Source of the DNA: Candidatus Zipacnadia bacterium
GTDB taxonomy: Bacteria > Armatimonadota > Zipacnadia > Zipacnadales > UBA5352
Length of the DNA stretch: 59,156 nucleotides
Direction of reading: 5' to 3'
NCBI GenBank assembly: GCA_029820295.1
Contig: JALGVA010000008.1
Location: forward strand, 1 to 59,156
This document shows positions 15,060 through 29,909 of the stretch, piece by piece. The translations under genes were made by a program, and so were the position numbers. The notes under the pieces were generated by a model, which was not told where the DNA came from, did not search any database, and saw only the letters and a program-made list of their open reading frames with translations. Positions within the stretch are counted from its first letter, which is position 1. Each line of letters starts with the position of its first letter.

Positions 15060-15093
15060 GGTGCGACCCCTCCCGGGAGTGAGGATGAGAGAG

Positions 15094-16401
15094 TCACAGC
15101 GACTCCAGGCCGGCCACGGCGGTGTCGGCCCAGAGCCTGGCGGTGCCCCTGGGCGCGCGGACATGCCGGCACAGGCGCGTCTCGTAGCTGCCCTCATCGA
15201 GGGCGCGGTCGGTTGCGACATAGCCCACGGTGTCGTTGGCGATGCCGATGTTCATGGTCTGCGCGAAGGGTGAGCGCTGCTTGATATCGAGGCCGATCTC
15301 GGTGAACACCTCACCGGGCAGGCCGGTGATGCCGAGGTCGCCGATGCGCATGGCGTGGATGGGCACGGTCCACTCCGACGGCAGCTCCGCGCACAGCACC
15401 AGCTCGCGCGCGTAGACCCACTCACTGTCCTCCCACTTCTCGCCCCTGTCGTAGAGCGCCTGCGCCTCGGCCAACTCCTCCTCCGACGGGCAGCGGGCCA
15501 CGAAGTTCACGCGAGTGATCGTGGCCCCCAGCGGCACATCATCGCGGAAGTCGTCCTCACGCAGACCGTTCCACGCGCGCCACGCCTCGCCTGCGACCAC
15601 GTTGGCGACGCGCTCGATCTGATGGGTGGCGTAGCGACTCTGTCGCGGCGGGCGGGTGGTATCGATGTTGTTGACGTCGCCGAAGGTGCCGTTGGCGAGC
15701 GGGCAGACGAAGTCGGCTCCCGCGCAGCGGTTGAGCGCCCGCCCGAAGGCCGCGAAGTAGTCGGCGCAGATGACGTCGTGGTTGCCGCTCACGCCCACGT
15801 AGTGCAGGCTCAGGTTCGCCAGCGCCGCGATGGGAACGCCGTCGGGGGCGCGCAGCACCATCAGCCCGAGCTGCGGATCGGTGGGGCCGGCGGGGCGCAG
15901 CGCATCCGGGTTCTGATGCCCCGGGTTCATGCGTACCGTGCCGTCCTTCATATGCCAGCGGCGGTTGTGCACCTCACCCGGGCAGGCGCCCGAGGCGTGC
16001 GCGACCTGCGCGGGCCGCATGCGCTCGACGGCGAGCGTGAGGGCGTCGGCGATGCGCGGCGCGACCCACTCGGCATAGCCCTCCTCCTCGGGCGTTCCCA
16101 GCGCGCCCACGATGGCCGGCCCCGTGTGCGTGTGCGTGCCGGCGATCAGGACGTGCTCGGGCGCGATCCCGGTGCGCTCGGCGACCATGGCCTTGGCGGC
16201 ATCCGCCACTTCGCCCGGCACCACAATGAGATCGCAAATGACGAACGCCAGCGTGGTGTCGCCGTTGGACAGCGCGATGGCCTTGGCCTGGAGAGGATCG
16301 AGGATGTCGGTGGCGCGGCGATCCTGGAAGTACCCGCACAGATGCGCGCCCAGGCCCGGCGTGATGTCGATCTCGGCGGCTCCGGCAGTCAACTGGGACA
16401 T
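15094..16401 (-). CDS. Neutral/alkaline ceramidase-like hydrolase
   Basis: The start MSQLTAGAAEIDITPG and the zinc-site motif AGTHTHTGP (H90, H92) are the signatures of the neutral/alkaline non-lysosomal ceramidase family. Further landmarks are LANGTFGDVNN, LHYVGVSGNHDVICADY and GLPGEVFTEIG. At 435 residues it is shorter than true ceramidases and lacks a signal peptide. Like the many short homologues in environmental bacteria, its substrate may not be ceramide. AGGAGGTCACC precedes ATG 16401. The 34-base gap to the downstream secreted enzyme suggests co-transcription. Confidence 0.82.
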   Translation of the reverse strand: MSQLTAGAAEIDITPGLGAHLCGYFQDRRATDILDPLQAKAIALSNGDTTLAFVICDLIVVPGEVADAAKAMVAERTGIAPEHVLIAGTHTHTGPAIVGALGTPEEEGYAEWVAPRIADALTLAVERMRPAQVAHASGACPGEVHNRRWHMKDGTVRMNPGHQNPDALRPAGPTDPQLGLMVLRAPDGVPIAALANLSLHYVGVSGNHDVICADYFAAFGRALNRCAGADFVCPLANGTFGDVNNIDTTRPPRQSRYATHQIERVANVVAGEAWRAWNGLREDDFRDDVPLGATITRVNFVARCPSEEELAEAQALYDRGEKWEDSEWVYARELVLCAELPSEWTVPIHAMRIGDLGITGLPGEVFTEIGLDIKQRSPFAQTMNIGIANDTVGYVATDRALDEGSYETRLCRHVRAPRGTARLWADTAVAGLESL

Positions 16402-16683: not shown

Positions 16684-16995
16684 TCAGGTGCGGGCCTGCT
16701 CGCGCGCGATGGCATCAAGCACGATGCGCAGCAGGTCGCCCGGCGGGGCCGCGCGCAGGACGTCGGGTTCGACGGTCAGCTCGACGCGCATGAGCAGCCG
16801 GTCGGCCGCCAGGCAGTCCAGCACCTCATCGACCGAGTCGGTCTCGGCGACGCGGCGTGCCAGGACGGAGTCGCAGATGCAGGCCCTGACCAGGGCCGCC
16901 AGGGCGACCACCTCAGGCGCCGCGGGCGAGGACCCCGAGAAGTCGAGCCCGGCCGGGAGTATGTTCCGCTCGATCATCCGCGCGAACCTGGACAT
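16684..16995 (-). CDS. Small protein ending the ubiquitin-like operon, unknown
   Basis: 103 residues, with no family that I recognise. It is predominantly helical (VVALAALVRACICDSVLARRV, then DSVDEVLDCLAADRL) with a short strand pair (LLMRVELTVEP). GGAGG is eight bases before ATG 16995; an alternative ATG at 17001 is too close. It begins 24 bases after the second E1-like gene, so it is the last gene of the operon. It has no zinc or catalytic motif, so an adaptor or regulatory role is possible but unsupported. Confidence 0.65.
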   Translation of the reverse strand: MSRFARMIERNILPAGLDFSGSSPAAPEVVALAALVRACICDSVLARRVAETDSVDEVLDCLAADRLLMRVELTVEPDVLRAAPPGDLLRIVLDAIAREQART

Positions 16996-17019
16996 GACCA
17001 TCGCCTCCGCGTTGGGGTC

Positions 17020-18360
17020 TCAGCGGTGTGCACAGCGCTGCGGCATGTCGGCGACGAAACGGTCGCCGCGCAACGTGGTGGCGCGGTAGCGGCAGGCGCC
17101 GTCGTGGCCCTGCAGGAACTGCTCCGAGCGGGAGCGCCGTGCGAGCGCCAGGGCGAGGCCGGCGGCGATCATGTTGCCGGCGAACAGCGCCGGATTGCGG
17201 GCACACTCGCCGCCCGCGGGCGCGGCCAGCGCCGCGGGCGGGTAGCGGCAGGCCACGCAGGCGGGGCCACCGCCGGCCAGGAAGGCCTCGGCGCCGTCGA
17301 GGCTGCTGCCGGCACACACCAGCGGCCCGGCGCCGTCGGGCAGCGCCCGCTGGGCCAGCAGGCGCGAGTGCACCGAGTCGGTGACCGCATAGGACACGTC
17401 CGCCGCGGGCAGGCGCGTCCCCTCCTCCACCATGCGCGCGATTGCCTCGACTTCGAGCGCGTCACAGCTCGCGAGCAGCTCGCGTTGCAGGGCGTCGACC
17501 TTGGTCCGGCCCTGCCAGGACTGCAGCAGCAGGTTGTGCGCGGCGACGGCGTCGCCGTCCACGAGGGTCAGGCGATCGCCCGTGCGCGCGGCGGGCCCGA
17601 TGGCCATGAGCGCCAGGATGGAGCCGATCCCCCCGGCCCCCACGCACAGCGAGGAGGTCGCGCCCCGGGCGGGGGCGTCGGGCAGCAGCAGCGTACACAC
17701 ATCATCGGGCGGGCGCTCCTTCACGCCGGGCAGGCCGGCGCCCGCGAGCAGCCGGGCCTCGTGCAGCAGCACTCCGGCGGCGATGAGCGAGGCATCGAGG
17801 GCGCACGGATCGCCACCGCCCTCGCCTGCGAGGACGCCGACCATGGCCTCGACCTGGGCCTCAGCCTGCCCGGGATCGGGGATGACGATGGCGCAGCCGC
17901 GCGGGCCGGTGGCGACGACGCGCACATGGCGGCGGTCGATCGCGCCCGACTCCACGGCCTGGTAGATCAGCTCGACAACGGCCGGCTCCTCGAGCGGCGC
18001 CACGAGGAAGGGCAGCCCGCGTACGCCCGCGCGCCGGATGAGGGTGAGCAGCGCGCCCTGCTCAGTGGGCAGAGGCGCGGGCGTGATGCGCGCGTCGGCG
18101 AACCAGCGGGGGACCACCTCGCCGGCGAAGGCCGCCGCGGGGCCGTGCGCGCGAGCGGCGGCGGGCGGGAGCAGATAGCTCGCCCAGTCGCCCCGCCCCC
18201 GTGCGTCGCGTTCGAGCAGCAGGCCGGGGCAGCCGATCGCCGCCAGGCCGGCGGCCACCAGCCGGCCCACGGGGCAGTCCACCAGCACGCCGTGGACGCC
18301 CTGCGCGCGGCGCAGGTCATAGGCCTCGGTCTCGCGCGTGCGATCAACGATCACGGTCAT
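17020..18360 (-). CDS. E1-like ThiF-family adenylyltransferase (second E1, E1-2)
   Basis: E1-like enzymes adenylate the C-terminal glycine of a ubiquitin-like protein. Residues 236-400 are a ThiF/MoeB Rossmann domain with nucleotide loop CVGAGGIGS (241-247), acidic LVDGD (D268, D270), N276/Q280, K287 and DSVHSR (D328, R333). CVAC (368-371) is half of a zinc site; C386 (GGECARN) is a candidate thioester cysteine. Residues 1-225 are an extra N-terminal domain that I do not recognise. ATG 18360 has GGAGGCGATC upstream and overlaps the JAMM gene end by 17 bases. It sits in the distal module with a GG-tailed ubiquitin-like protein, an E2-like protein and a JAMM peptidase. Confidence 0.83.
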   Translation of the reverse strand: MTVIVDRTRETEAYDLRRAQGVHGVLVDCPVGRLVAAGLAAIGCPGLLLERDARGRGDWASYLLPPAAARAHGPAAAFAGEVVPRWFADARITPAPLPTEQGALLTLIRRAGVRGLPFLVAPLEEPAVVELIYQAVESGAIDRRHVRVVATGPRGCAIVIPDPGQAEAQVEAMVGVLAGEGGGDPCALDASLIAAGVLLHEARLLAGAGLPGVKERPPDDVCTLLLPDAPARGATSSLCVGAGGIGSILALMAIGPAARTGDRLTLVDGDAVAAHNLLLQSWQGRTKVDALQRELLASCDALEVEAIARMVEEGTRLPAADVSYAVTDSVHSRLLAQRALPDGAGPLVCAGSSLDGAEAFLAGGGPACVACRYPPAALAAPAGGECARNPALFAGNMIAAGLALALARRSRSEQFLQGHDGACRYRATTLRGDRFVADMPQRCAHR

Positions 18361-19474
18361 GATGATCGCCTCCCTCAACGACCGCGTGCACGCCCGGCGG
18401 AGCGGCCAGTGCCGCAACGTCTTCGGTCAGCGCCCGCAGTTCATCGAGCGCACTCGCCACGCGGTCGTCGCCGCCATCGACGGCGCTCTCGAGCACATCG
18501 AGCCACCTGGTGAGCCGGTCGCCGACATCATCCGGCGCCTGCCGCACGGTGACCGCGCGGACGGGCGTGCGTGTCGCGGGCTGCGCGTGCCGGTTGGAGT
18601 GGCGCCACCAGGTGGTGCGCTTCGGTGTCCGCGCCGCAGAGGAGTGGCAGTAGCGCTGGACCTTCTCGTCCAGCTCCGCCGCCCAGGCCTCGGCGTCGAA
18701 GACCCGCCCCAGGTAGTGCGGGGCGAAGTTGTCGGTGACGCTCAGCTCGAGCGGATGCAGCGAGCGCTCGACCTGTTTGCCGCACTCCCGGCACACTTCG
18801 GTGCGTAGCACCTTGCCGTGCAGGTTGCCGTCGCTGCCGGTCACGGCCACGAACACTTCGGCGACGCCGCGCAGCGATTCCAGCTCGCCCCCGGAGATGA
18901 CCAGGCGCGTGCCGGGCTCGACCGCCAGTTCGAAGCGCCGGCCCGCCGCGCGCAGCCGCATGTGCTCTCCGGCCCGCAGGGCGACCGGCTCGGGATGGTG
19001 CACCGGCTCGAAGAGCATGACGCCCGATGCCAGGTCGCGGGCGAGGGCCCCGAGCAGGTTGATGTCGGTGCCGCTGAGGAAGAAGCGCGGTGGGACGCGG
19101 TCGGCGCGCTGCTGGACCGAGGACGGGTGGTGGTGCACCTGGCAGAGCATGCGCAGGCTGGCCGCCGCGGCGTCGCGCGCGATCTCGTCGATCCCCAGGG
19201 GCAGCGTCTGGCACAGCGCCCTGCTGGCGAGCTGGCGGCCGCAGGCGAAGTAGCACACGCGCCGGGTGGCGGGATCGCCGACACCGTGCAGGGCGACCTC
19301 GCAGCCCCCATGCTGTTCGCCCCACTCGACGGTGGCGTGCCACTGCAGGTGCGCCAGGGGCGAGAGTTCGTAGCGGATCGGCTCCTCGCTGGCCACGGCG
19401 TCGAGGCGCCCGGCGCCGCTGCCCCGCGTCCAGCCGGACTGCACGCCATCGCTGTACGCCCGGGTCACGTTCAT
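18344..19474 (-). CDS. JAMM/JAB-type metallopeptidase-like protein (JAB-2)
   Basis: JAMM peptidases trim or remove ubiquitin-like proteins. The zinc motif is visible as QVHHHPSS (H114, H116, P117) followed by LSGTDINLL (S134, D137), spaced as in the family; E59 in GCEVALHG is the likely catalytic glutamate. Residues 228-276 include CRECG and a later cysteine that may bind zinc. The C-terminus (about 280-376) is Arg-rich and then helical. The start ATG 19474 has GGAGGTGG nine bases upstream. It lies between an E2-like and an E1-like gene, which supports a deconjugating or precursor-processing role. Identification rests on motif spacing and context. Confidence 0.72.
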   Translation of the reverse strand: MNVTRAYSDGVQSGWTRGSGAGRLDAVASEEPIRYELSPLAHLQWHATVEWGEQHGGCEVALHGVGDPATRRVCYFACGRQLASRALCQTLPLGIDEIARDAAAASLRMLCQVHHHPSSVQQRADRVPPRFFLSGTDINLLGALARDLASGVMLFEPVHHPEPVALRAGEHMRLRAAGRRFELAVEPGTRLVISGGELESLRGVAEVFVAVTGSDGNLHGKVLRTEVCRECGKQVERSLHPLELSVTDNFAPHYLGRVFDAEAWAAELDEKVQRYCHSSAARTPKRTTWWRHSNRHAQPATRTPVRAVTVRQAPDDVGDRLTRWLDVLESAVDGGDDRVASALDELRALTEDVAALAAPPGVHAVVEGGDHHDRDR

Positions 19475-19496
19475 GGCGTGACCACCTCCATGCGGA

Positions 19497-20657
19497 TCAC
19501 AGTTTCACGGTCTTGCGGCCGCGCTCGGAGTTCACCCACGGGATGATCATCAGTCCCTGGCGCTTCGCCGCCCAGCGGGTGGTGCGGGGCGCGTGACTCT
19601 CCGCCAGCTTGCGGTACGGGTTGGCGCGGGTCCGGGAGCCCTGGCCCCCGAGCAGCACCTGTACACCGCGCTCGAGCGCCTTGATGATCATCGCCGCGGG
19701 CGACAGGTCCTCGTCGCAGAAGATCATCTCGACGTGCCCGGCGGAGCACAGCTCCCGGCCCATCTCGGAGACGAAGGGGTGGATGATGTCGCTCGCCGAG
19801 GGCATCGCGACCCGCGTGTGCAGGCGCGTCGCTCCGGGGGAGAGCACGAAGTCCCGCAGGGTCCGCGGCCCCGCGTAGAGTGAGAACGTGCCCGGCGGGA
19901 AGGCGTACCAGCGCTTCCACGCATCCTGTTGGGCGAAGCCCGGGAAGCTCATGGCGAAGCTCATCACCGACTCGTGCGTGTCCCAGGTGATGCGCAGCGG
20001 CGGGTCGTCGAACACGGTCACCTCGCGCTCCGCCGCCTCCGCCAGGAGCGTGCGGAAGCGCTCCAGCGGCCGGGGGTCGAGCGCGAAGGCGGCTGCGTGG
20101 GGGCGCAGGTGCTCGCGCACCGCCGCCGCGGCGCGCTCCTGCACGACGCACCACCAGCGGTCCACGGGAATAGGCGCGATGGGCTCGTAGCTCTGCCCGT
20201 GCGCAGTGATGCGGCCCTCGGCCTGGGGCACGAGGGCGTAGGCGCGCCGGAACCACAGCAGCAACTGATCGGGGACGAGCCGCGCTGCGTCGCAGGCCGA
20301 CAGCTCATCATGCGCGCGCTCGATGAGCTGCTGCGACCGCGTCTCGTAGGGCAGCCCCTGCTCACGCGAACGGCGCCACTGATGCGCCACATCCTCGGCC
20401 AGTGCCGCGGCAAAGGCCAACTCGTCCCCGTCGCCCGCCTGTTCGCTCATCAGCGCGCGCACCTGGTCATCGACCAGGGCTGCGACCGGGAAGGTCTGAG
20501 CGTGGCCGAACTCGATGGTGCCTTCCGGGGCGTCCACCAGCCGGAAGGTGGGCGCTCCGGGGGCACTGCCCGGCTCGCTCGGCAGGTACACGGTGCCGCC
20601 GAGGAGCAGGGCGGCGTAGCGCAGCAGCACGGCCGGGCACTCAGCCATGCCCCTCAC
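19497..20657 (-). CDS. E2/UBC-like protein with long N-terminal extension (E2-2)
   Basis: The C-terminal third looks like a ubiquitin-conjugating fold. A strand segment (PLRITWDTHESVMSFAMSFP) leads to IIHPFVSEMGRELC, which matches the E2 pattern HPN...G.xC with H293-P294 and a candidate thioester cysteine C304, 11 residues later as in E2s. DLSPAAMIIKALERGV then replaces the W.P...I..VL helix, and RANPYRKLAES the N..A terminal helix. Residues 1-210 are an extension of unknown fold. GTG 20657 overlaps the previous stop (GTGA); ATG 20648 is an alternative. The E2 reading is mine from motif order and needs profile confirmation, but it fits the Ubl-E2-JAMM-E1 order. Confidence 0.6.
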   Translation of the reverse strand: MRGMAECPAVLLRYAALLLGGTVYLPSEPGSAPGAPTFRLVDAPEGTIEFGHAQTFPVAALVDDQVRALMSEQAGDGDELAFAAALAEDVAHQWRRSREQGLPYETRSQQLIERAHDELSACDAARLVPDQLLLWFRRAYALVPQAEGRITAHGQSYEPIAPIPVDRWWCVVQERAAAAVREHLRPHAAAFALDPRPLERFRTLLAEAAEREVTVFDDPPLRITWDTHESVMSFAMSFPGFAQQDAWKRWYAFPPGTFSLYAGPRTLRDFVLSPGATRLHTRVAMPSASDIIHPFVSEMGRELCSAGHVEMIFCDEDLSPAAMIIKALERGVQVLLGGQGSRTRANPYRKLAESHAPRTTRWAAKRQGLMIIPWVNSERGRKTVKL

Positions 20658-21109
20658 ACTCCGCCGCCGCCGGCGTAGACCTGCGCGAAGCTGATGTGCA
20701 GGCTCTGATCGTGGGCCTCACCGTCGGAGATGCGCACGGGCGTGCTGGGGGCGATGAAGTCGGCGTCCTCGGGGCCGCGGCGGAGCATCATGGAGTAGCC
20801 GGCGTTGTCCGCCTGCGGGAGCCAGCCGCGCACCTGGTTGATGAAGGTGCGGCGGCGCGCGACCTCGGCCGGGTCATCGTCGCCGCCGTCGGGGTCATGC
20901 TCCATGGCCAGGCGCAGCAGGCCGCCCATGTCGAGGTCGCGCCCCGCGACCAGGCTGCGGGGAAGGGTGAAGACCTGGTGGTCGCCGGCCGGGCCGGCGA
21001 CGGTGATGGCGATGGCGGGCTCGCGTGGGGCGAGCGCGCCTCCCGGCAGGGCGGGTGCGTCCTCGTCGGGATGGTCGGTGATCTCGCGGATGAGCAGTCC
21101 TCCGTCCAT
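20654..21109 (-). CDS. Ubiquitin-like protein with GGGGV tail (UBL-1)
   Basis: This 151-residue protein ends in a beta-grasp domain. Strands AIAITVAGP and HQVFTLPRS are followed by a helix (MGGLLRLAMEH), an acidic insertion and a second helix, then GYSMMLRR. The last strand SLHISFAQVYAGG parallels ubiquitin's STLHLVLRLRGG. The final residues G147-G150, V151 mean that a JAMM peptidase could trim the GGV to expose a diglycine. The first 30 residues are probably a flexible tail. GAGGAGGCG is eight bases before ATG 21109. It is followed directly by E2-like, JAMM and E1-like genes, so it is the probable conjugated modifier of the distal module. Confidence 0.72.
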   Translation of the reverse strand: MDGGLLIREITDHPDEDAPALPGGALAPREPAIAITVAGPAGDHQVFTLPRSLVAGRDLDMGGLLRLAMEHDPDGGDDDPAEVARRRTFINQVRGWLPQADNAGYSMMLRRGPEDADFIAPSTPVRISDGEAHDQSLHISFAQVYAGGGGV

Positions 21110-21157: not shown

Positions 21158-22297
21158 TCAACCGGCATCGTCCCCGGGGCTCCAACGCGGCCCCAGGTAC
21201 CAGGTGTCGAGATGCTCGCGGGCGGCGCGGCCGCTGGCGACGAGCACGCGCAGCACGCCCTCGACCCCGAGGGTGCGCTCCGCGCACAGCGCCAGTGCCT
21301 CGTCGAGCACCTCCACGGCCACCGCGGGCATGGGCGTGGCGCGGTGGTCGGCGGCCCACTGCAGCAGCACGTCGGTCACGCGCTCGTCGATGGCGACGCC
21401 GCACCGCCGCTGCAGGTCCTGCGCCTGCGCCGCGACCATGGCGCGCAGAGCGGCGTCGCCGGGCCGCTGGATGCGAACCGCGGGCTCCAGGCAGCCGATC
21501 GCGTCGGGCTGCGACTGCAGCGTCACGAACTGCTCGGGCGTGAGCCGCACGACGACGCGCAGGGCGGCGAGCAGGTCGGCGGGCAGCATCCTGCCCGCCC
21601 ACTCGGTGCCGCCGCTGCGCAGCAGCAGGATGTCGCCCCGGGCGGCCAGGTCCGGGAACTCCAGGCGGCCGATGTCCCGCGCCAGCGTAGCCGCCTCCAG
21701 CTCGATGATGCGCACGCCCGCCAGGGGCGACGGTGGCGGCGGGTAGTCGCCCTCCCCGGCGAGCGCGTTGGCGAGACACAGCGCGGTCGAGCGCCGGCCC
21801 GAGCGCGGCGCGCCCACCAGCGCGATGTGCGGATGGCGCCGCCGCGCCAGGCGCACCATCAGGGCCTCGACCTCGGCCCGCCGGCCCACGACCGGGTGCG
21901 GCGCGGCGGCCACCAGGTCACGCGGCCCATCAGACGCCGGAGGTCCGGGGTCGTCAGGCTCCGTCTCGCGGTCGTGCTGCCGCCGGAGGACGCGGCTCAG
22001 ACGGTAGTCGGCGAGTGCCGCCGCCACCAGGTCGAGGGGCGTGATCGGGCCACGCGCGTGGGCCGCGGCGGCGGCCAGCAGCGCCTGCTCGGCCGCCACC
22101 GCGGAATCGTGCATGCGCACCGAGTCGTCGGGGAGCACCTCCACCAGGGCTTGTCCTCCCCGCCTGGCGGCCGCGCGCAGCTCGGGCGTGATCGGCTGCC
22201 CCGCCGCCTCGAGCACGGCCAGCACATAGACCTCATCCTCGCGGCCACGGGCCTCCTCCAGCACCCGCGCGGCCTCCGGGCTCACCTGCGCTTCCAC
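21158..22297 (-). CDS. ClpA/B-like protein with degenerate Walker A
   Basis: Residues 1-110 resemble a Clp N-domain (paired helical repeats, with AEQALLAAAAAH and PLDLVAAALADYRLSRVL). Residues 135-340 follow the ClpA/B/C D1 ATPase: HPVVGRRAEVEALMVRLARR, nucleotide loop GAPRSGRRS where GxPGxGKT is expected, and the small-domain line AIDERVTDVLL...MPAVAVEVLDEAL matching LPDKAIDLIDEA. The lysine of Walker A is replaced, and there is no second ATPase domain, so it is probably not an active ATPase and may be an adaptor or partner. GGAGGTGA lies just before GTG 22297; GTG 22306 is an alternative start. It follows the AAA gene after an 18-base gap. Confidence 0.7.
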   Translation of the reverse strand: MEAQVSPEAARVLEEARGREDEVYVLAVLEAAGQPITPELRAAARRGGQALVEVLPDDSVRMHDSAVAAEQALLAAAAAHARGPITPLDLVAAALADYRLSRVLRRQHDRETEPDDPGPPASDGPRDLVAAAPHPVVGRRAEVEALMVRLARRRHPHIALVGAPRSGRRSTALCLANALAGEGDYPPPPSPLAGVRIIELEAATLARDIGRLEFPDLAARGDILLLRSGGTEWAGRMLPADLLAALRVVVRLTPEQFVTLQSQPDAIGCLEPAVRIQRPGDAALRAMVAAQAQDLQRRCGVAIDERVTDVLLQWAADHRATPMPAVAVEVLDEALALCAERTLGVEGVLRVLVASGRAAREHLDTWYLGPRWSPGDDAG

Positions 22298-22315
22298 CTC
22301 AGTCACCTCCCTGCG

Positions 22316-23488
22316 CTACACCGGCACGACCACGCCGTCCAACTCCGCCTGAGCCTGGGTCTCCAGGGCCGGCTCGAACGCCGGCCGCAGTTGCAGGTCG
22401 GCCGCGGCCCCCGACAGCGCGGGAACGATCATGCCCACATCGCCGCTGTGCGCATGGGCGACGATGCGCTCGGCGAGCTGGCCGAACACCTGCGTGTACG
22501 CCGCGCGCGCGTGCGCCTGCTCGATCGGCTCGGGGTCGGCCAGCAGGTGCGCGCGGTTGAGCACTTCGCTGACCATCGACGGCGTGAGGCAGTCGGCGAG
22601 CGTGATCTCGCAGGCGATGTTGCCGCGCCGCCCGCGCGCCAGCGTGGTGGGCGCGACCAGCACCTCGCCCAGCCACCGGGTCACGTCCTCCCCGGCGAAC
22701 TCGTAGCGCGGCGCATGAGCGGCGATGACCGCCGGCACCAGCTCCATGTCGAGGGTGCCGAAGGTGATCACCCCGCGCAGACGATGCGAGGTCAGCGCCG
22801 GGTCGAACCACGGGCTGCCATAGTTCGTAATCACCAGCACCGTGCAGGCGAGCGCCGGGTCCTTCTTGAGCTTGTCGAGCACGGCCAGCAGCGCGCTGGT
22901 GGTGCCCGCGACCGTACCGCCGCATGACTGTCGCTCCGTGAACTGGCGCGACTGCATGAGCTGCTCGGAGTCATCGAGGAGCACGAGCACCGGGTGTCCC
23001 GCACGGCCGAACTCGAGCACCGTCTCGCCCATCTCGCGTACCATGTGCTCGCTCTGGCCGTAGTACCAGCGCCGGAAGTGGCCCGGCTCGTAAGACAGGA
23101 AGACCAGCCGGCCCTCGGAGCGCCGCGCGATTTCGTTCACCGCGTACTCCGCGGCTGAGGTCTTGCCGCTGCCGGTGGGGCCGCTGACGATGACCAGCAC
23201 CGGGTCGACGGCTGGGGTGAGCGTGGGCCTGACTATCAGCCGCTCGATCTGATCGCACTGCTCCTCGCTCATCACGACCTGGAAGTCCGACTCGGGATAG
23301 GGGGTGGTGATGCTCGGACCCGAGCGGGCGTCGGAGACGGCGATCGCGATCCGATGCCGGCTCGATCCCACCACTTGATTTCCGGGGCGCGCCTGGCCGT
23401 ACACGCCGGCCGTGCAGTACCAGGTGCTGGGCCTGTCACCGGGTGTGACGGACTCGTCCACGTGCAGTGTCCTGGTCAACTGGCTCAC
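22316..23488 (-). CDS. AAA ATPase of proteasomal/CDC48-like type
   Basis: Probable unfoldase or remodelling ATPase. The AAA module begins near residue 95. It has Walker A GPTGSGKT (103-110), an aromatic pore-loop-like segment HFRRWYYGQSEHMVREM (YVGESE in proteasomal ATPases), Walker B VLVLLDDSEQL (DD in place of DE), a LLAVLDKL helix, sensor 1 VLVITN (218-222), and DPALTSHRLRG where DPALxRPGRFDR carries the arginine fingers. Residues 1-75 are strand-rich and unassigned. The C-terminus VVVPV is not an HbYX proteasome-docking motif. A GTG start is assumed at 23488. The preceding gene may carry the missing N-terminal coiled-coil/OB part. No 20S proteasome genes are in the window. Confidence 0.78.
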   Translation of the reverse strand: MSQLTRTLHVDESVTPGDRPSTWYCTAGVYGQARPGNQVVGSSRHRIAIAVSDARSGPSITTPYPESDFQVVMSEEQCDQIERLIVRPTLTPAVDPVLVIVSGPTGSGKTSAAEYAVNEIARRSEGRLVFLSYEPGHFRRWYYGQSEHMVREMGETVLEFGRAGHPVLVLLDDSEQLMQSRQFTERQSCGGTVAGTTSALLAVLDKLKKDPALACTVLVITNYGSPWFDPALTSHRLRGVITFGTLDMELVPAVIAAHAPRYEFAGEDVTRWLGEVLVAPTTLARGRRGNIACEITLADCLTPSMVSEVLNRAHLLADPEPIEQAHARAAYTQVFGQLAERIVAHAHSGDVGMIVPALSGAAADLQLRPAFEPALETQAQAELDGVVVPV

Positions 23489-23512
23489 TCCTTCAGGGCT
23501 GTGCCTGTCGCG

Positions 23513-24073
23513 TCAGCTCGCGTCCGCCTCCAGCGCGAGCGGGATCTGCTGTGCCTCCGGACGGGCGTCGTCGGGGCCGTCATCGACGCTCACCACGCGC
23601 CCCACGTCGGGGCCGATAACGAGCAGGAACAGCTCCGGGTACTCGTCCAGCCAGTACACATCCACGATCACGCCGCCACCGCTGTCGAGCGCGGCCAGCG
23701 CCGGCCCGCGCTCCTCGAACTCCTCCGGGCACAGCAGCGGGGGCTCGCCACCCTCGGGCGGCATCACCCCGACGCGCTGGTAGGCCCCGTTGCCCAGACT
23801 CACCACGTAGTGCCGGTCGTCGATACAGGCGAGAACCGGCAGGAGGCTGTTGGGACCGCCCTCGATGGCCTCGATCAGCTCCTGGCGTGCCCGCACTTCC
23901 TGCTCGAGGGCCTGGTGCGCGCCGCGGGCGGCGTCGGCGATGATCAGCGAGTCCTGCGGCTCCTGCAGCATGCTCCGCAGTCGCTCCCACGCGGCCGGCG
24001 CATCCTCGTCGCTCGCGGCTGTGTACTCGGCCAGTGCGCGGCCGATGGCGAGCTGATGGTCCGGTGATGACAT
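23513..24073 (-). CDS. Helical plus OB-like protein, possible ATPase N-terminal subunit
   Basis: 186 residues with no certain family. Residues 1-72 are helical, with a coiled-coil-like stretch (GAHQALEQEVRARQELIEAI). Residues 76-105 (LLPVLACIDDRHYVVSLGN then AYQRVGVMP) have the strand pattern of the OB domain that follows the coiled coil in proteasomal ATPases (ARC/Mpa/PAN). A second strand group spans 132-165. The gene for an AAA module that lacks such an N-part follows 24 bases later, so the two may be a split unfoldase. The start overlaps the JAMM stop; GTG 24076 directly precedes ATG 24073. The OB reading is inference. Confidence 0.55.
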   Translation of the reverse strand: MSSPDHQLAIGRALAEYTAASDEDAPAAWERLRSMLQEPQDSLIIADAARGAHQALEQEVRARQELIEAIEGGPNSLLPVLACIDDRHYVVSLGNGAYQRVGVMPPEGGEPPLLCPEEFEERGPALAALDSGGGVIVDVYWLDEYPELFLLVIGPDVGRVVSVDDGPDDARPEAQQIPLALEADAS

Positions 24074-25155
24074 CACGAGACGCTCCCTTCGTGTACGCGT
24101 TCATGGCGCACGTCGTGCTCGCCGTCGGCGAGGCGGGCGGGGGCGGCGAGCGCGTCATCCGCGATGATCCAGAACCCGCGATCGGACTCGATCCGCCCGA
24201 AGCGCGCGCTGTAGCCCCACGGCGTAATCGGCACCGGCTCGCCGGCTTCGCTCGGCAGCGAGGCGATGATGGTCGCCTGATGGACGTGCGGCAGCCCGCG
24301 TCTGAATTGCGCCAGGTCCACCGCCGACGGGATCGTGAGGCCCCAGCGCAGCTCATCCTCGTCGTCACCGGCCTCCGGATCGATGACCGCGGGATGCGAG
24401 TGGCAGATCGCGGCCACCGGCCGGCCACTGGCCTCGCCCTGCGCCCCGGCGCCCACGTGCACCGAGTGGCTCGTGGCCGTGCCGTCGAGCGGGCTGACCG
24501 CGTCGTAGAGCACGTAGGGCAGCAGGCCGCTGTCGGTAGGGGTGATGGCCAGCTCGCCGTGCAGCGCGGCCATGCGCTCGTTCTCCAGATCCTCCGTCAG
24601 GTAGTCGAGCAGGTGCTGCAGCGCTGAGGCGGCGAACACCCGCGCGATGGCGCCGGTGGGCTTGCCGACGATCGCGCCCTCGGACAGCGCGATCGGGCGC
24701 ACCGGCGGCGCCATCATGGCGTGCCGCCAGGCGGAGGGACGCTCGCCGATGACGCGAATGCCCGCCGTCGCCACGTCCTCGCGGGCGAGATCGGTGCAGA
24801 CCAGGCGGTAGTCGGCCAGCTCGCTGTCGGACCGCCCGTACGTCTGCACCACCTCGGCCCACACGTCATTGATCGCGCTGGTGACCAGCTCGCAGTCGCG
24901 GTTGATAACGCCCAGGGCCGTCTCCGGGCGATCTTCGATGTAGACCGCGAAGGCGATGACCTCATCGTCACCCCGGACCATGGCGGGCTCGACCCGCGCC
25001 CGCAGCTCGCCGGTGGCGCCGTGGTTCAGCGTGTAGGCCAGCACGAGGTACTCCACGATCGGGGTCATGGACTGCGCCGGGAAGTAGCCGATGAAGCGGC
25101 TCCCATCCTCGCGGCTCGTCAGTTGTATCTCGACCTCCATGGTCTTCACCGCCAT
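24073..25155 (-). CDS. JAMM/JAB-type metallopeptidase (JAB-1)
   Basis: Residues 170-310 form a JAMM domain: catalytic glutamate in HGELAITP (E201), zinc ligands in AAICHSHPA (H252, H254) and IPSAVDLAQF (S277, D280). The spacing is right for Rpn11/AMSH-type deubiquitinating or Ubl-processing peptidases. Residues 1-110 are a separate strand/helix domain (MEVEIQLTSREDGSRF and so on) that could be a substrate-binding or beta-grasp-like module; I cannot name it. The length is 360 residues; ATG 25155 or ATG 25140 could be the start. It follows the ubiquitin-like gene UBL-2 after a 77-base gap containing a strong hairpin, and it overlaps the OB-like gene. Confidence 0.8.
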   Translation of the reverse strand: MAVKTMEVEIQLTSREDGSRFIGYFPAQSMTPIVEYLVLAYTLNHGATGELRARVEPAMVRGDDEVIAFAVYIEDRPETALGVINRDCELVTSAINDVWAEVVQTYGRSDSELADYRLVCTDLAREDVATAGIRVIGERPSAWRHAMMAPPVRPIALSEGAIVGKPTGAIARVFAASALQHLLDYLTEDLENERMAALHGELAITPTDSGLLPYVLYDAVSPLDGTATSHSVHVGAGAQGEASGRPVAAICHSHPAVIDPEAGDDEDELRWGLTIPSAVDLAQFRRGLPHVHQATIIASLPSEAGEPVPITPWGYSARFGRIESDRGFWIIADDALAAPARLADGEHDVRHERVHEGSVS

Positions 25156-25232: not shown

Positions 25233-25511
25233 TCAGTTCCCGGTGAGGTCGCCGACGAGGCGCACCTCCGCCTCGTCGCTCTGCAGGCTCTCGCCCACGG
25301 CCACGTCGGGGGCCAGCCGCTCTTCACCGACATAGAGGGCATAGCTGCCCGGCGGCTGACCGGTGATGTCGGCGAGTTCGCCGGCCAGCTCGCCCGCGGT
25401 CTTCGCGCGATCAACTGCCGCCTTCACGAGCGCCTGGCCGGAGCGGTCGCTGACGGAGAGGACGACCTCGTCCTCGCTCACCTCCACCGGCTGCAGAAGC
25501 TCCATGCTCAT
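25233..25511 (-). CDS. Small ubiquitin-like beta-grasp protein (UBL-2)
   Basis: This 92-residue protein follows the beta-grasp order: strands EVVLSVSDRSG and QALVKAAVDR, helix AGELAGELADITGQPPGS, strand YALYVGEERL, an extended loop, and a last strand AEVRLVGDLTGN. It resembles YukD-like ubiquitin relatives. Unlike ubiquitin it ends in GN, not GG, so it may be used unprocessed, conjugated through a different end, or act non-covalently. The start is ATG 25511, with AGGGGGTGAT, close to the ideal Shine-Dalgarno, seven bases upstream; the longer GTG frame (25535) overlaps the previous gene. This strong site and the hairpin behind the gene suggest high expression. Confidence 0.72.
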   Translation of the reverse strand: MSMELLQPVEVSEDEVVLSVSDRSGQALVKAAVDRAKTAGELAGELADITGQPPGSYALYVGEERLAPDVAVGESLQSDEAEVRLVGDLTGN

Positions 25512-25515
25512 TTCA

Positions 25516-25983
25516 TCACCCCCTCTCTCCCGCACGTGGTTCGCCCGGCGTCTCCCCGCAGCGCATCTGCAGATAGGCCGCGGCCAGCGCGGGCTCGGAC
25601 AGCAGCGCGTTGGCCCGTCCGAGCGCTCCCGTCCCCAAGGCCGCGGCCACCAGCACGAGGCGCGCCGCGTCCTCGACCGGACCGCTAACCTGCAGCCACG
25701 CCACGCCTTGCTCGCGCGCGCACCCGGCGGCCACCTCGACCCCCTCGACCTGCGCGGCCGCCGTGCTCAGGAAGGCCTCGGCGGCGCGCCAGCCGGCATC
25801 GTCCGGCCGCGCCGGGAGAAGCTGAGCCTGCAGCCTCAGCTCAGCGGCCTCGACGGCCGCGACGAGCCGGGCCAGCCCGCGCGGGCGCAGTCCCAGCCTG
25901 CCCACCGCTCCTGATGCCGTCGCCCGCACGTCGCTCACGCGCGCGGCGACCATCGACTCAGCCAGGTCAGCGGCCATCGGCAT
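25516..25983 (-). CDS. Small helical protein in ubiquitin-like operon, unknown
   Basis: 155 residues, Ala/Leu/Arg-rich, with helices at about 5-60 and 105-145 and a strand pair in the middle (VEGVEVAAGCAREQGVAWLQVSG). I do not recognise a family. It overlaps the E2-like gene and ends four bases before the UBL-2 start, so it is translationally tied to both. ATG 25977 fits the GGAGGG site better than ATG 25983. An adaptor or E2 partner role is possible from position only. Confidence 0.65.
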   Translation of the reverse strand: MPMAADLAESMVAARVSDVRATASGAVGRLGLRPRGLARLVAAVEAAELRLQAQLLPARPDDAGWRAAEAFLSTAAAQVEGVEVAAGCAREQGVAWLQVSGPVEDAARLVLVAAALGTGALGRANALLSEPALAAAYLQMRCGETPGEPRAGERG

Positions 25984-26581
25984 CGCCCTCCGCTTCCAGC
26001 ACGCGGATACCTGTCGGCGCCGGTCGCGCCAACGGCAGCTCGAAGCGCTCGATCGCGCCCTCGCGCAGCCACCGCGCCACGCCCGGCGCGAGCGCCCAGT
26101 TGTGTCCGAGGGCGTAGGTGCCCGGCTCGTAGCGGAGCATCATCGGTAGCACTCGGAAGACATCGCCCAGGTCGGTGTGGTCGATGCGCCAGTCGTCGAG
26201 CAGGCACACGCCGCCCGGGAGCGTCGGCGTCACGTGAGGGTGGGCCACCGGCGGGTACGGCCCCGGCAGCAGCGTCAGACCGGGCCGGCCGCGCTCGGCG
26301 AGCAGCTCAACGCCGATGGCCAGCAGCGCCTGCACCGGCTGCACGTCATCCGGCCCGGCGGGCCGCCAGAAGGCGATGCGCAGCCGGGCCTCGATGTCAT
26401 TCTCGTCGGGCCCCGGGTTCGCCGCCGGTGCGCCCCGCACGATGCCGAGGTAGCGCGCCTCCACCAGGACGATCAGCCGGTTCTCGTCGCAGCGGTCGGC
26501 CGCGAACACCGCCGGCGCCGACCGCAGTGATTGCACCTGGCGCTCGAGATAGGCCGCTCGGCATTCGGCGTCAGTGCGCAT
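25967..26581 (-). CDS. E2/UBC-like conjugating enzyme (E2-1)
   Basis: Residues 45-190 match the order of a ubiquitin-conjugating fold: YPPVAHPHVTP (H114-P115, the HPN position), a GGVCL motif with candidate thioester cysteine C126, a tryptophan three residues on (DDWRID), helix DLGDVFRVLPMML, and a later HNWALAPGVARWL that resembles the N..A end helix. The length, 204 residues, is slightly longer than classical E2s. ATG 26581 is served by GGTGGGTGA; GTG 26590 is possible. The gene overlaps the E1-like gene upstream and the helical-protein gene downstream. By context it would accept the Ubl from E1-1 and work with the RING-like protein. Confidence 0.75.
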   Translation of the reverse strand: MRTDAECRAAYLERQVQSLRSAPAVFAADRCDENRLIVLVEARYLGIVRGAPAANPGPDENDIEARLRIAFWRPAGPDDVQPVQALLAIGVELLAERGRPGLTLLPGPYPPVAHPHVTPTLPGGVCLLDDWRIDHTDLGDVFRVLPMMLRYEPGTYALGHNWALAPGVARWLREGAIERFELPLARPAPTGIRVLEAEGDADGR

Positions 26582-27755
26582 CGCGCTCACCCACCGTAAC
26601 CGGCTCGATGGTCACGACCTCGCCCGGCTCGGCGGCGTCGCCAGCCAGCTCGACGAGCAGCCCGGTCGCACCGCACCGGATCTCGATGATCGGCCACCAG
26701 GGCCAGCCCAGCTCCGCGGGCGTGCGCTCCAGCGCATCGGCCAGCGGCACCGCCGTGCCCGACGGGATGCGCTCGGCCGCCAGCACGTCAGCACTCCCGC
26801 AGCCCCCGCAGCGCACCCGCCGGCCGAGCAGCAGGTGCGGCAGCTCGGTGTAGCGCCCGCAATCCGGGCAGAAGACCGCGCGCGCGGCCGGCGCCGGGAG
26901 CGCCACCTCGGCCTCGCCGGCGTCCACGCCGAGCGCGTCGAGGATCGCTTCGAAGATGTCGCCCGTGCCCTGCGACACGGACGTGATCTGCTCGGAAGAC
27001 CGGCCGTCATCGGCGCCGCACACCGGGCAGTCGGCGCGCCGGGCCACCCGCGCGCGCAGCACCGGCTGTCCGGGTGCGAGGTGCATCATCTCCGTATGCT
27101 CGCGCGCGCCCGCGGCCAACGCCTGTGTCTCCTCGATCGCGGTCGCCGCCACGAGCGCGGCCTGATGAAGGGTGGAGTTGGTCGGCGGCGGCTCGGGCGC
27201 GTTGGCCTCAACGGCGTCGATGCCGTCGAGGAAGCAGCCCGCCGGCGGCTGCTCGGGGTTGCGCCCCAGGCAGGCGTAGCATGCCTGCTCGCGACCGGCA
27301 GGGGCCGCCAGCACCTCGACCGCGTCCGGCCCGAGCCCGGTGGCCACCATCGCCAGGCCATGGCGGCGGGCGACGCGCGCCAGGTGCGTCTGCGTGGCGA
27401 TCGCGTCGGTGCACGCGAGCACGAGCGCGCCCTCCCGGGCCAGGTGGCGCCAGTAACCGTCGCCGATGTCCTCCGCCGCCGCGAGCAAGCTGCGCTCGGG
27501 GCCAAGCCACGGGAAACGGGCGCGTCGGTACTCCTGCAGCATCGCCGCCTTCGGGCGGCCGGGCTGGGGGAAGGGCGACAGGATCGTCTGGCGGGGCTCC
27601 ACGTGGTCGAAGTCGATGAGGTCGAGGTGCGCCTCGGGGGCCAGCACGCCGATCATGGCGCCCGTCAGGCCGCAGCCCACGAGCGCGGCGCGGAAGTCGC
27701 ACGAGGGAGGCCGGGCCTCGCGCACGGGGAACTGCTTCATCACGCGCACACTCAT
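26571..27755 (-). CDS. E1-like ThiF-family adenylyltransferase (E1-1) with zinc ribbon
   Basis: The ThiF Rossmann domain starts near residue 22: nucleotide loop LVGCGLTG (G27, G29, G32), DLIDFDHVEPRQ (D48, D50, R55, Q56), K69 in GRPKA and CTDAIATQ (D117). CYAC (159, 162) and CPVC (243, 246) form the structural zinc site of MoeB/ThiF/E1 proteins. C174 (PPAGCFLDG) is a candidate thioester cysteine. An additional zinc ribbon follows (CPDC 296-299, CGGC 316-319), then a C-terminal strand domain (residues 325-390) in the position of an E1 ubiquitin-fold domain. ATG 27755 overlaps the RING-like gene stop (ATGA); the 14 codons before it in the open frame are Arg-only noise. 394 residues. Confidence 0.85.
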   Translation of the reverse strand: MSVRVMKQFPVREARPPSCDFRAALVGCGLTGAMIGVLAPEAHLDLIDFDHVEPRQTILSPFPQPGRPKAAMLQEYRRARFPWLGPERSLLAAAEDIGDGYWRHLAREGALVLACTDAIATQTHLARVARRHGLAMVATGLGPDAVEVLAAPAGREQACYACLGRNPEQPPAGCFLDGIDAVEANAPEPPPTNSTLHQAALVAATAIEETQALAAGAREHTEMMHLAPGQPVLRARVARRADCPVCGADDGRSSEQITSVSQGTGDIFEAILDALGVDAGEAEVALPAPAARAVFCPDCGRYTELPHLLLGRRVRCGGCGSADVLAAERIPSGTAVPLADALERTPAELGWPWWPIIEIRCGATGLLVELAGDAAEPGEVVTIEPVTVGERDAH

Positions 27756-28228
27756 GGCTCGGCGCCCCCTTCGACCGCGGCGCCGCAGGCGAAGCACCGC
27801 TGCTCCGGCGCGCCGCCGGTGGCGCAGAAGAGCGAGTCGGTGACGGTGCCGCAGGAGCAGGCGAAGACCTCGGCGCCGGGCTCGATGTCAAGGTGGCATA
27901 CCGGGCACCGGGAGTGAGCGGGTGCGATGGTGCGCTGAGGCCCGCGATGGTCGGCGCGCGCCGTCCAGGTCGCGGCGCCAACGGTGAGCGGCGCCTCGAG
28001 CAGGTCGAGCAGGCCGCCCATGACCGGGCGGCCGCGCGAGGTGGTCATGGGGGCCGCGGCGGGAGCGATGATGGCCCAGACCGCGGCGGCGGTCGCGAAC
28101 ACACAGAGCGCGGCCCCACCGGCCGCCACCGGCTCGCCGGCGCCGTCGAGCCACCGCACGTCACCGGCCGCCATGGCGATGATGCGCTCATCGCCGGTGG
28201 TGCTCCTCACGTAGATGCTCGCGCTCAT
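27752..28228 (-). CDS. RING/treble-clef-like zinc protein, first gene of the operon
   Basis: 158 residues. The C-terminal 55 residues carry C108-x2-C111, C124-x-C126, C135 and C145-x2-C148. This order and context (CPVCHLDIEPGAEVFACSCG) match the RING-like E3 domains predicted in bacterial Ubl operons. The histidine pair usual after CG is absent (TVTD), and only seven cysteines are present, so it is atypical. Residues 1-100 are strand-rich and may be an FHA-like or other binding module. ATG 28228 has GGAGGGGAC upstream. It is the leading gene behind the -10/-35 element at 28313-28341. An E3 or scaffold function is inferred. Confidence 0.65.
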   Translation of the reverse strand: MSASIYVRSTTGDERIIAMAAGDVRWLDGAGEPVAAGGAALCVFATAAAVWAIIAPAAAPMTTSRGRPVMGGLLDLLEAPLTVGAATWTARADHRGPQRTIAPAHSRCPVCHLDIEPGAEVFACSCGTVTDSLFCATGGAPEQRCFACGAAVEGGAEP

Positions 28229-28312: not shown

Positions 28313-28341
28313 ATTATAGGTAGTGATAAGACGAGAGTCAA
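28313..28341 (-). promoter_or_regulatory. Near-consensus sigma-70 promoter of the ubiquitin-like operon
   Basis: On the minus strand, TTGACT (28341-28336) and a perfect TATAAT (28318-28313) are separated by 17 bases. Transcription would start near 28306, giving a leader of about 78 bases. This is the best-matching minus-strand promoter I see in the window, and it implies strong expression unless repressed. Confidence 0.8.
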
Positions 28342-28342
28342 G

Positions 28343-28404
28343 CTGTCGAGACGAAGAATCCGCCCGGCGTGCTCGAGAATCGCACCACGCCCTGCGACAG
28401 AATA
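28343..28404. promoter_or_regulatory. Candidate operator region between divergent promoters
   Basis: Between the two promoters, CTGTCG (28343-28348) and CGACAG (28395-28400) form an inverted pair. AGAATC/AGAATA also recurs at 28355, 28376 and 28399, with spacings of 21 and 23 bases (about two helical turns). These are plausible binding sites for the SorC-type regulator encoded next to them. No experimental or comparative support is available here. Confidence 0.4.
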
Positions 28405-28424
28405 TCGCTCCCACTGGTGACTCC

Positions 28425-28453
28425 TTGACATGCTGTGTGGCATTGAATAGACT
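28425..28453 (+). promoter_or_regulatory. Sigma-70 promoter of the SorC-type regulator
   Basis: A perfect TTGACA (28425-28430), a 17-base spacer and TAGACT (28448-28453). The start of transcription is expected near 28460, about 20 bases before the regulator's start codon. Confidence 0.75.
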
Positions 28454-28481
28454 TCTGTGCGGGGATCAGCGAGGAGGAGGA

Positions 28482-29909
28482 ATGAACCAGGCCATGAACG
28501 ATGAGCACGCAGCCCACACTGCAGTTACGCACGACGTCGCCGGGGCCGGCGGGAATGGGACGGGAGCGAGCGCCTCTTCGATCGACGATGATCGCGCGCG
28601 CTTCCTCGGCTATGGTCCGGAGTTGACCGCGCAGCGCGCCGAGGAACTCGCGGGTGAGTACGAGGTGGCGTGGCTTCTCGCCCTCGGGCTGGACGCCGAC
28701 GAGATTGCCGAACGTGTCAATCTCTCACGTGCGAGCGTCTACAGACTGCTCCGGTCCGCTGAGGAGGACCACGGACTCCTGGACAGGCGCCCGCGTGTCG
28801 CGGTCCCGGTGGGAGAAGGCGCCGAATTCCTGTGGCAGCGCGTGGAGCGCAGCGACCTGGGGGAGCGGGTCAGGGGCCACCTCGTAGAACGCCACCGGCA
28901 CGGCAGCGAGACCGCCCCCCGCGAGGTGCTGGTGGCGCCCACCGCCGGCCTGGACAAGACCGAGGACCGCGAGGAGAGATCGAGGGCCGTCGTGCGGCGC
29001 GTGGGGCATGTGGCCGCACGGCGCGTGATGCGCGGGCTGCTGGACAGCAGCGCCCGCGCGATCCGGGTCATGGGCATCAACTGGGGGTTCCACTGCTGGG
29101 CGCTCAGCCATGCTCTGCCCGCCGAGCTGTATGCTCGTCTGCCGGTGGAGCGGGCGCGAGAGCTTCGTATCTTCCCGCTGGCAGGCTCAATCGGGCTGCT
29201 TGACGAGGACCGGCAGCAGTACATAGCCGAGACCTCTGCCACCGCCAACGCGGAACGTTGCGTCGAGAACCTCACGCACTATGGCCTGGAGCCGCGCCTG
29301 CGTGCCGATGAAGAGGACGCCCCGATCCCACCACCCATGCAGTTGACGCAGCCGGCAGTCATCCCCCACCCCGTGGACGGCGGCGACTGCGAATCGTACA
29401 TCAGGGAGGTCTGGCGCTACATCGCCTCGGACATGTCCGTGCAGGCGATCTTCGGCCACGAGTGGGCGTTGTCGCGTCTGGAAGGCGACGTGCCGGAGCA
29501 CGATCCCGAGGGGCCGCTGCTCCACCAGGCCGATACCCTCATCACCGGTCTGAGCACCGGAGACGATTCACGGGCGGTCCGGATCGGGGCCATCTCCGAG
29601 CAGCTCGCCGGCCAGGCCAGAGCCGGCGCTGCGAAGGGGGAGATCTCAGCGCATTACTTCTCCCATGCTGAAGACAGCGAGGACTGCCGCGAGGCGCTGC
29701 GCGCGGTCAACCGTTGGGTGGTAGCGCCAACGATTGATGACTACGTGCAGTGTACGAGGCGGGCCCGGGAGACCGGCCGAGGGCTCGGCACCGTCCTCGT
29801 GGTCAGCCAGAAACGTAAGACCGCAGCAGTGGACGCGGCCATCAGCCATGGCGCGGTGAACGTGCTGGTCTGCGACGAGGAGCTTGCGCAGGAGCTGCTC
29901 GAGATCTAG
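28482..29909 (+). CDS. SorC/DeoR-type sugar-binding transcriptional regulator
   Basis: 475 residues. Residues 63-92 are a helix-turn-helix (VAWLLALGLDADEIAERVNL then SRASVYRLL). The C-terminus (TVLVVSQKRKTAAVDAAISH, then VNVLVCDEELAQELL) is the characteristic end of the SorC sugar-phosphate-binding domain, which otherwise reads (V)AVAGGxxKxxAIRAAL...NVLITDE. It is longer than usual because of a 60-residue N-terminal tail and insertions. ATG 28482 follows GAGGAGGAGGA; the longer frame from 28323 covers the promoters. It is divergent from the ubiquitin-like operon and convergent with a secreted-enzyme gene. It is the obvious candidate to control the operon, with a phosphorylated sugar as likely effector (inference). 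Confidence 0.8.
   Translation: MNQAMNDEHAAHTAVTHDVAGAGGNGTGASASSIDDDRARFLGYGPELTAQRAEELAGEYEVAWLLALGLDADEIAERVNLSRASVYRLLRSAEEDHGLLDRRPRVAVPVGEGAEFLWQRVERSDLGERVRGHLVERHRHGSETAPREVLVAPTAGLDKTEDREERSRAVVRRVGHVAARRVMRGLLDSSARAIRVMGINWGFHCWALSHALPAELYARLPVERARELRIFPLAGSIGLLDEDRQQYIAETSATANAERCVENLTHYGLEPRLRADEEDAPIPPPMQLTQPAVIPHPVDGGDCESYIREVWRYIASDMSVQAIFGHEWALSRLEGDVPEHDPEGPLLHQADTLITGLSTGDDSRAVRIGAISEQLAGQARAGAAKGEISAHYFSHAEDSEDCREALRAVNRWVVAPTIDDYVQCTRRARETGRGLGTVLVVSQKRKTAAVDAAISHGAVNVLVCDEELAQELLEI

Follow-up and report, generated by a model that had tools for sequence, protein, structure and literature searches.

The window, by which we mean the whole 59,156-base stretch of DNA analysed, carries a minus-strand run of closely spaced genes (28228 to 16684) that is predicted from its sequence to encode two ubiquitin-like tagging pathways and, in their midst, a ring ATPase divided over two genes. 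On balance, we favour the reading that this ATPase is a diverged, two-gene member of the Mpa/ARC type, which would serve the two tagging pathways encoded around it without a 20S proteasome. Mpa/ARC, in those bacteria where the motor has been studied, is bound up with Pup and the 20S proteasome; if our reading is true, this motor would be reusable by a ubiquitin-type tag, away from both. The window is contig C189 of a draft genome (G000) of 5.63 Mb that is 98.6% complete and 4.1% contaminated, and its GC content is ~71–75% around the operon region. The nearest named relative found, L051, comes from a Candidatus Zipacnadia MAG of the same class within Armatimonadota (locus L002/L051, contig G042:C353, JALGUG010000041.1; draft genome G042, 95% complete). 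It has the coiled-coil/OB and AAA parts fused in one 539-residue chain within a collinear operon. Window coordinates given below are on the minus strand unless stated otherwise.

Gene structure of the ATPase

The original prediction described a coiled-coil plus OB-like gene followed by an AAA gene with a Walker A motif, a YYG sequence and a Walker B motif with DD, and these reading frames and motifs were found. The first gene (23513–24076, 187 aa from a GTG) encodes a coiled-coil and OB protein that corresponds, by BLASTP, shuffles and hhalign, to the N-terminal region of an ATPase like Mpa/ARC, encoded here separately; no Pfam family matched it. The second encodes an Mpa-like AAA core, a lid and the end of a second OB domain (22316–23479; Pfam AAA E = 7.6e-11, BLASTP, hhalign), within a frame of 390 aa (22316–23488) that is open from GTG 23488. 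Both share one reading frame, such that reading through gives 586 residues interrupted by a single TGA (23515–23513). A survey of start codons located a ribosome site, AAGGAG (23488–23493), and because it sits 8 nt before TTG 23479 and overlaps GTG 23488, the TTG is the likely start of the AAA gene. The gene starts of Ubl2 and JAB2, two other members of the operon, have ribosome-site matches similar to that of the AAA gene.

We consider the two-gene split in the window very probably genuine, since neither a nonsense mutation nor a sequencing error would be expected to produce such a start. It is unlikely that a gene truly fused, as in L051, has here been broken by a nonsense mutation or an assembly error. 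That explanation would fit the shared frame with its lone TGA and the fused state of the relative, and the split site is covered by one genome, as a 99%-identical contig of genome G005 stops inside E1a. It fits poorly with the 6-nt ribosome site ahead of an in-frame TTG, as, of 211 ATG/GTG/TTG codons lying in frame inside the operon's genes, only one has an equally long match, and with the junction itself, which has no residues alignable to the fused chain and where the OB protein has diverged towards its C-terminus.

Comparison with the fused chain also indicates where the division lies. By BLASTP, residues 11–117 of the OB protein matched residues 6–115 of the L051 protein (6e-7), and residues 26–357 of the AAA protein matched residues 179–519 (5e-21; 24.7% identity over 348 residues). 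The coiled coil and first OB domain together scored 102 against the fused relative (shuffled 32.5 ± 5.5, 0/1000), and the first OB domain alone scored 79 (shuffled 28.9 ± 5.1, 0/1000). No significant match to the fused relative was found for the last ~70 residues of the OB protein, for which 94 of 1000 shuffles were as good. Residues 26–49 of the AAA protein (23333–23404) matched the last part of the relative's OB region with a score of 50 (shuffled 23 ± 4.2), which none of 1000 shuffles reached; this stretch includes a GSSRH motif common to both chains. The AAA gene is hence not a pure AAA module. Taken together, these shuffle tests place the cut near the predicted second OB domain, the end of which the AAA chain retains.

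The operon and its ubiquitin-like genes

Fourteen genes of the window are collinear with the L051 locus, where a single gene takes the place of the OB and AAA pair. The run begins with a zinc-finger protein (27752–28228), a candidate E3 and orthologue of an L051 protein with FHA and Prok-RING_1 domains (BLASTP 7.6e-6); in the L051 protein, Prok-RING_1 scores 1.4e-7, over the cut-off, and FHA lies at the cut-off. It is followed by E1a (26571–27755), an E1-like protein with a ThiF domain and a zinc ribbon (Pfam ThiF 2.4e-8; 4e-30 to L051), and by the E2-like protein E2a (25967–26590; 8.6e-11 to L051), which had no Pfam match. The active-cysteine signature of E2a, HPxV...GGVCLLDDW in the window, is kept in HPxV...GxCLxxW-like form at both loci. 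Gene 4 (25516–25983) encodes a protein conserved in position, with a weak match to gene 4 of L051 (E = 0.19). Ubl1 (25233–25511; 5e-6 to L051) is the first candidate ubiquitin-like modifier and ends in LTGN in both loci; the window protein had no Pfam match and that of L051 matched Ub-RnfH at E = 0.13. JAB1 (24073–25155; 5e-8 to L051), a JAB/JAMM peptidase, carries an HSH...SxxD motif kept in L051 and matched Prok-JAB at E = 0.015, below the cut-off.

Beyond the ATPase genes lies a reduced Clp-type protein (21158–22306), assigned from weak ClpK/ClpA matches and collinearity. Its L051 counterpart, of 777 aa, contains an IGF loop as well as two P-loops; the window protein has 382 aa and no second AAA domain, and the lysine of its degenerate P-loop (GAPRSGRR) is lost. 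Ubl2 (20654–21109), the second candidate modifier, was assigned from synteny and a match of E = 0.04 to L051, and ends in GGGGV (VGGA in L051). E2b (19497–20657) is a probable second E2-like protein (HPFV...ELC), recognised by position and motif alone, and JAB2 (18344–19474) is a second JAB/JAMM peptidase, whose HHHP...SGTD motif is shared with L051 as AHWHP...SPQD. The HxH...SxxD motif of the JAMM metal site is thus kept in both JAB proteins of both loci, with Pfam Prok-JAB below its cut-off. A second E1-like ThiF protein, E1b (17020–18360; Pfam ThiF 1.2e-7; 7e-12 to L051), and a small protein (16684–17001; 3.5e-4 to L051 gene 14) complete the conserved operon. The weak gene pairs were placed by position (gene 4, Clp, Ubl2 and E2b) or by motif (JAB2). 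The Gly-x tails of both candidate modifiers would fit precursors for trimming by JAB peptidases. When searched with the PADLOC E1–E2 models (Bil/Bub-type), the E1s gave weak matches (best 1.6e-5, 22 bits) and E2a and the JABs gave none. Neither the two full E1/E2/JAB sets nor a split cutting near an OB domain had been foreseen in the original prediction.

Bacterial operons that combine E1, E2, JAB and ubiquitin-like genes have been described (Iyer et al. 2006, PMC1779556); in that paper the term AAA is absent and Clp appears as ClpS. PMC13373217 mentions operons termed Bil and Bub. The window operon resembles all of these in having E1-like, E2-like, JAB and Ubl genes together, but differs in carrying two sets in one operon along with two AAA-type proteins. 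A search of the available literature, which did not extend to the work of Burroughs et al. (2011) on prokaryotic RING E3s, found no described system of this make-up; an earlier description of such an operon may exist. The archaeal ubiquitin system of the Caldiarchaeum type (PMC5654768) comprises E1, E2, a small RING E3 and a ubiquitin-like modifier. It has a single modifier set, and it is likened to the window operon by description, not by sequence.

Several features were observed around and outside the conserved genes. A regulator with an HTH and a sugar-binding domain (PF04198) lies upstream of the operon at both loci, divergent in the window (28323–29909, plus strand) and co-directional with the operon in L051 (2630–3940); the two proteins are weakly alike (E = 0.014). 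The surroundings of the operon in the window (12459–15221 and 29962–52280) encode large carbohydrate-binding, glycosyl hydrolase-like, DUF6259 or heparinase-domain proteins. In L051, two extra small genes without NCBIfam matches follow the conserved operon (18593–19686), and an HPP-containing stretch therein (19213–19686) looks E2-like by eye. The genome of the relative also encodes another E1-like protein outside the operon (L074, G042:C203:3102-4301), which matched the E1a profile with E = 1.2e-16.

Probable relationship to the Mpa/ARC family

The lineage of the pair is probably nearest to Mpa/ARC. A two-row profile of the window pair and L051 was compared by hhalign with three families, namely Mpa (35 Armatimonadota sequences, several on contigs that also carry PafA), TRIP13 and TPR-AAA. 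Among these three, Mpa gave the best match (E = 1.5e-17), with 290 columns aligned between the end of the OB region and the lid, followed by TRIP13 (2.4e-11 over 173 columns) and TPR-AAA (1.7e-10 over 201). The stretches aligned between the pair and Mpa include EFGRAGHPVLVLLDDSEQL with EKASTGHLVFIFIDEAESI and ITLADCLTPSMVSEVLNRAHLLA with LYWRDLLSGALLMSVVERAKDYA. The OB part, compared separately with Mpa N-domains, gave a probability of 41.5 and an E-value of 2.7e-4, with 60 column shuffles reaching at most 1.5 in probability, and the lid alone gave a weak 5.9 (shuffles at most 1.9).

Searches with predicted structures ranked the same families first. Both AlphaFold models were built from two-row alignments and were used for fold ranking alone. 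The model of the fused relative, for which the window read-through supplied the other alignment row, was of low confidence (mean pLDDT 45, pTM 0.39), and in Foldseek mycobacterial Mpa came first (E 2.1e-6, TM 0.35), with PAN and Rpt next. A model of the 151-residue N-domain of the relative consisted of a helix followed by five strands and five more strands (mean pLDDT 51, tentative). Its top Foldseek matches were ARC and Mpa OB domains (E 0.018–0.04), and nearly all of its best 50 were OB domains of ARC/Mpa, PAN or Rpt, with E-values of at least 0.018. Because the models are poor, these fold searches back the family assignment but cannot prove it. The suggestion of a split proteasome-type ATPase is supported by the syntenic fused relative, the best hhalign match to Mpa and the N-domain model leading to ARC/Mpa/PAN/Rpt OB domains.

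It is improbable, by comparison, that the pair is made up of an AAA protein from a different AAA group (CDC48-like, or TRIP13/Pch2 of CBASS) and an unrelated OB adaptor. In a PDB HMM search with the same alignment, CDC48/p97 had the most bits (60, residues ~277–496) against 42.6 for Mpa (226–555); however, the CDC48 match ends at the AAA core, and that to Mpa (5kwa), the longest stretch among the PDB matches listed, reaches the OB end and the lid. Bacterial Pch2 came first in a single-sequence search and the PADLOC TRIP13 profile matched with E = 9.5e-11, but membership of TRIP13/Pch2 was rejected, as the score was 39.6 bits, compared with >400 in true members and 50–62 in Mpa-length proteins, some of them beside PafA, which the same profile also retrieves. 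L051, furthermore, carries OB and AAA in one chain. The NCBIfam Mpa model gave the ATPase 21 bits against a cut-off of 505.

The favoured reading is of a diverged ATPase of the Mpa/ARC type. Like Mpa/ARC of actinobacteria and pupylating Armatimonadota, L051 has a coiled coil, a tandem-OB-like region and an AAA domain with an alignable lid. Unlike them, the window pair is two genes rather than one polypeptide (as L051 is), Walker B is unusual, the neighbours are E1, E2, Ubl and JAB genes instead of Pup and PafA, and a 20S proteasome was not found. PAN and the Rpt ATPases, the second-ranked fold matches, share the coiled coil–OB–AAA plan but are single chains with a 20S partner, and PAN has a single OB domain.

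Motor, candidate proteases and distribution

The AAA protein has a Walker A motif (GPTGSGKT, 23159–23182), a sensor-1 ITN and, by profile alignment, a pore-loop-like YYG (RWYYGQSE, 23057–23065) aligned to the WLG/WVG of Mpa and a Walker B motif (VLVLLDD, 22970–22990) with D for the usual E. Where the window has DD, the fused relative has NE; of the two arginines in the SRH of Mpa, the first is missing from the window protein. Given this missing arginine and an unusual Walker B in the window protein and its relative alike, hydrolysis of ATP may be weak or may have been lost. The C-terminal ends, VVVPV and EAALA, have no HbYX motif. Its absence had been pointed out in the original prediction and is correct, yet it is uninformative, because ordinary Mpa proteins of this phylum, which end in -VI or -II, also lack it.

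The absence of 20S genes near the ATPase, also noted originally, holds and extends to the draft genome. No 20S proteasome was detected in the window genome or in G042, each of which has HslV as its sole PF00227 protein (an NCBIfam equivalog in the window genome; hslV between xerC and hslU in G042). PafA/Dop (PF03136) was absent from both and present in 17 of 61 relatives, and in several of the pupylating relatives an additional PF00227 protein lies near PafA. ClpP, the other target of the genome search proposed with the original prediction, is encoded in the window genome, within a tig-clpP-clpX run, and in G042. Two full-length Clp ATPases are encoded elsewhere in the window genome.

The sequence evidence supports the lineage and the split; for complex formation, recognition of the modifiers, ATP hydrolysis, the substrate and its fate, we infer the following. 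The coiled-coil/OB1 part and the OB2-end/AAA part would be made from two translationally linked genes and would assemble into one hexameric machine. JAB proteases would trim the Gly-x precursors of both modifiers, which the two E1s would activate and the E2s and a RING-type E3 would pass on, and the same proteases would later remove the modifiers. Modified proteins would enter through the coiled coil and OB parts, and the AAA ring would pull on them, with a released or remodelled protein (unfoldase/segregase) or transfer to a Clp machine as the outcome. These two outcomes are proposed because no 20S proteasome was found in the genome. Tag and motor are linked by their shared operon; what the sequence itself provides is the genes and their motifs.

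How the motor would meet a protease, if at all, can be envisaged differently. Direct docking of the AAA protein on ClpP, to form an ATP-dependent protease, is very unlikely: both genomes have ClpP and a 20S proteasome was not found, but no IGF/LGF-type loop was noted in the AAA protein, an IGF loop being typical for ClpP binding, and clpP in the window genome belongs to the tig-clpP-clpX operon. The original prediction had named ClpP-like partners, and it is the neighbouring Clp-type protein of L051 that carries such an IGF loop. That the ring has no ATPase activity left and instead receives Ubl-tagged proteins, as scaffold or receptor, for delivery to a Clp machine has a better but still minor chance of being correct. 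The DD and NE of Walker B, the partial loss of the SRH arginines and the adjoining Clp protein of L051, with both P-loops and its IGF loop, speak for such a scaffold. Against it, the window protein keeps Walker A, the sensor-1 N and the aromatic pore loop, and the Clp protein of its own operon is reduced, although the two full Clp ATPases exist elsewhere in the genome.

The favoured two-gene motor suggests a bacterial ubiquitin-type unfolding pathway that needs no proteasome. A further step is more speculative: we tentatively raise the possibility that a 20S-free pathway of two modifiers, with their own E1, E2 and JAB and a two-chain motor reading the mark and unfolding the marked proteins, by itself or on behalf of a Clp protease, replaced Pup–PafA–Mpa–20S in this lineage and kept the motor. 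Related operons in fused and split form would make the coupling of tagging systems to unfoldases testable, and the split/fused pair offers a natural test of whether an OB ring and an AAA ring work in trans.

The system is rare within the phylum. High-coverage matches to the OB–AAA protein were found in two of 291 phylum genomes, and E1a in the same two and on one contig of G005. This contig (L073, G005:C181:1-12000) ends inside E1a and is 98–99% identical to the window around the RING and E1a genes. It was rejected as a third case, since such identity in another genus, in a genome with 8% contamination, probably reflects a misbinned contig. The plasmid collection contained no fused ATPase, E2a or E1a, and no relatives were found among the viral contigs. 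A pattern-based scan of genome contigs recovered L051 as the sole further relative, and as other bacterial phyla were covered by that single scan, we limit the claim of rarity to the phylum. Separately, AAA proteins of ~600 aa near diverged PafA-like genes were observed in the same family, order or phylum (L013 on G022:C13, G002:C78 and G050:C39), and these loci possibly represent another Pup-like branch.
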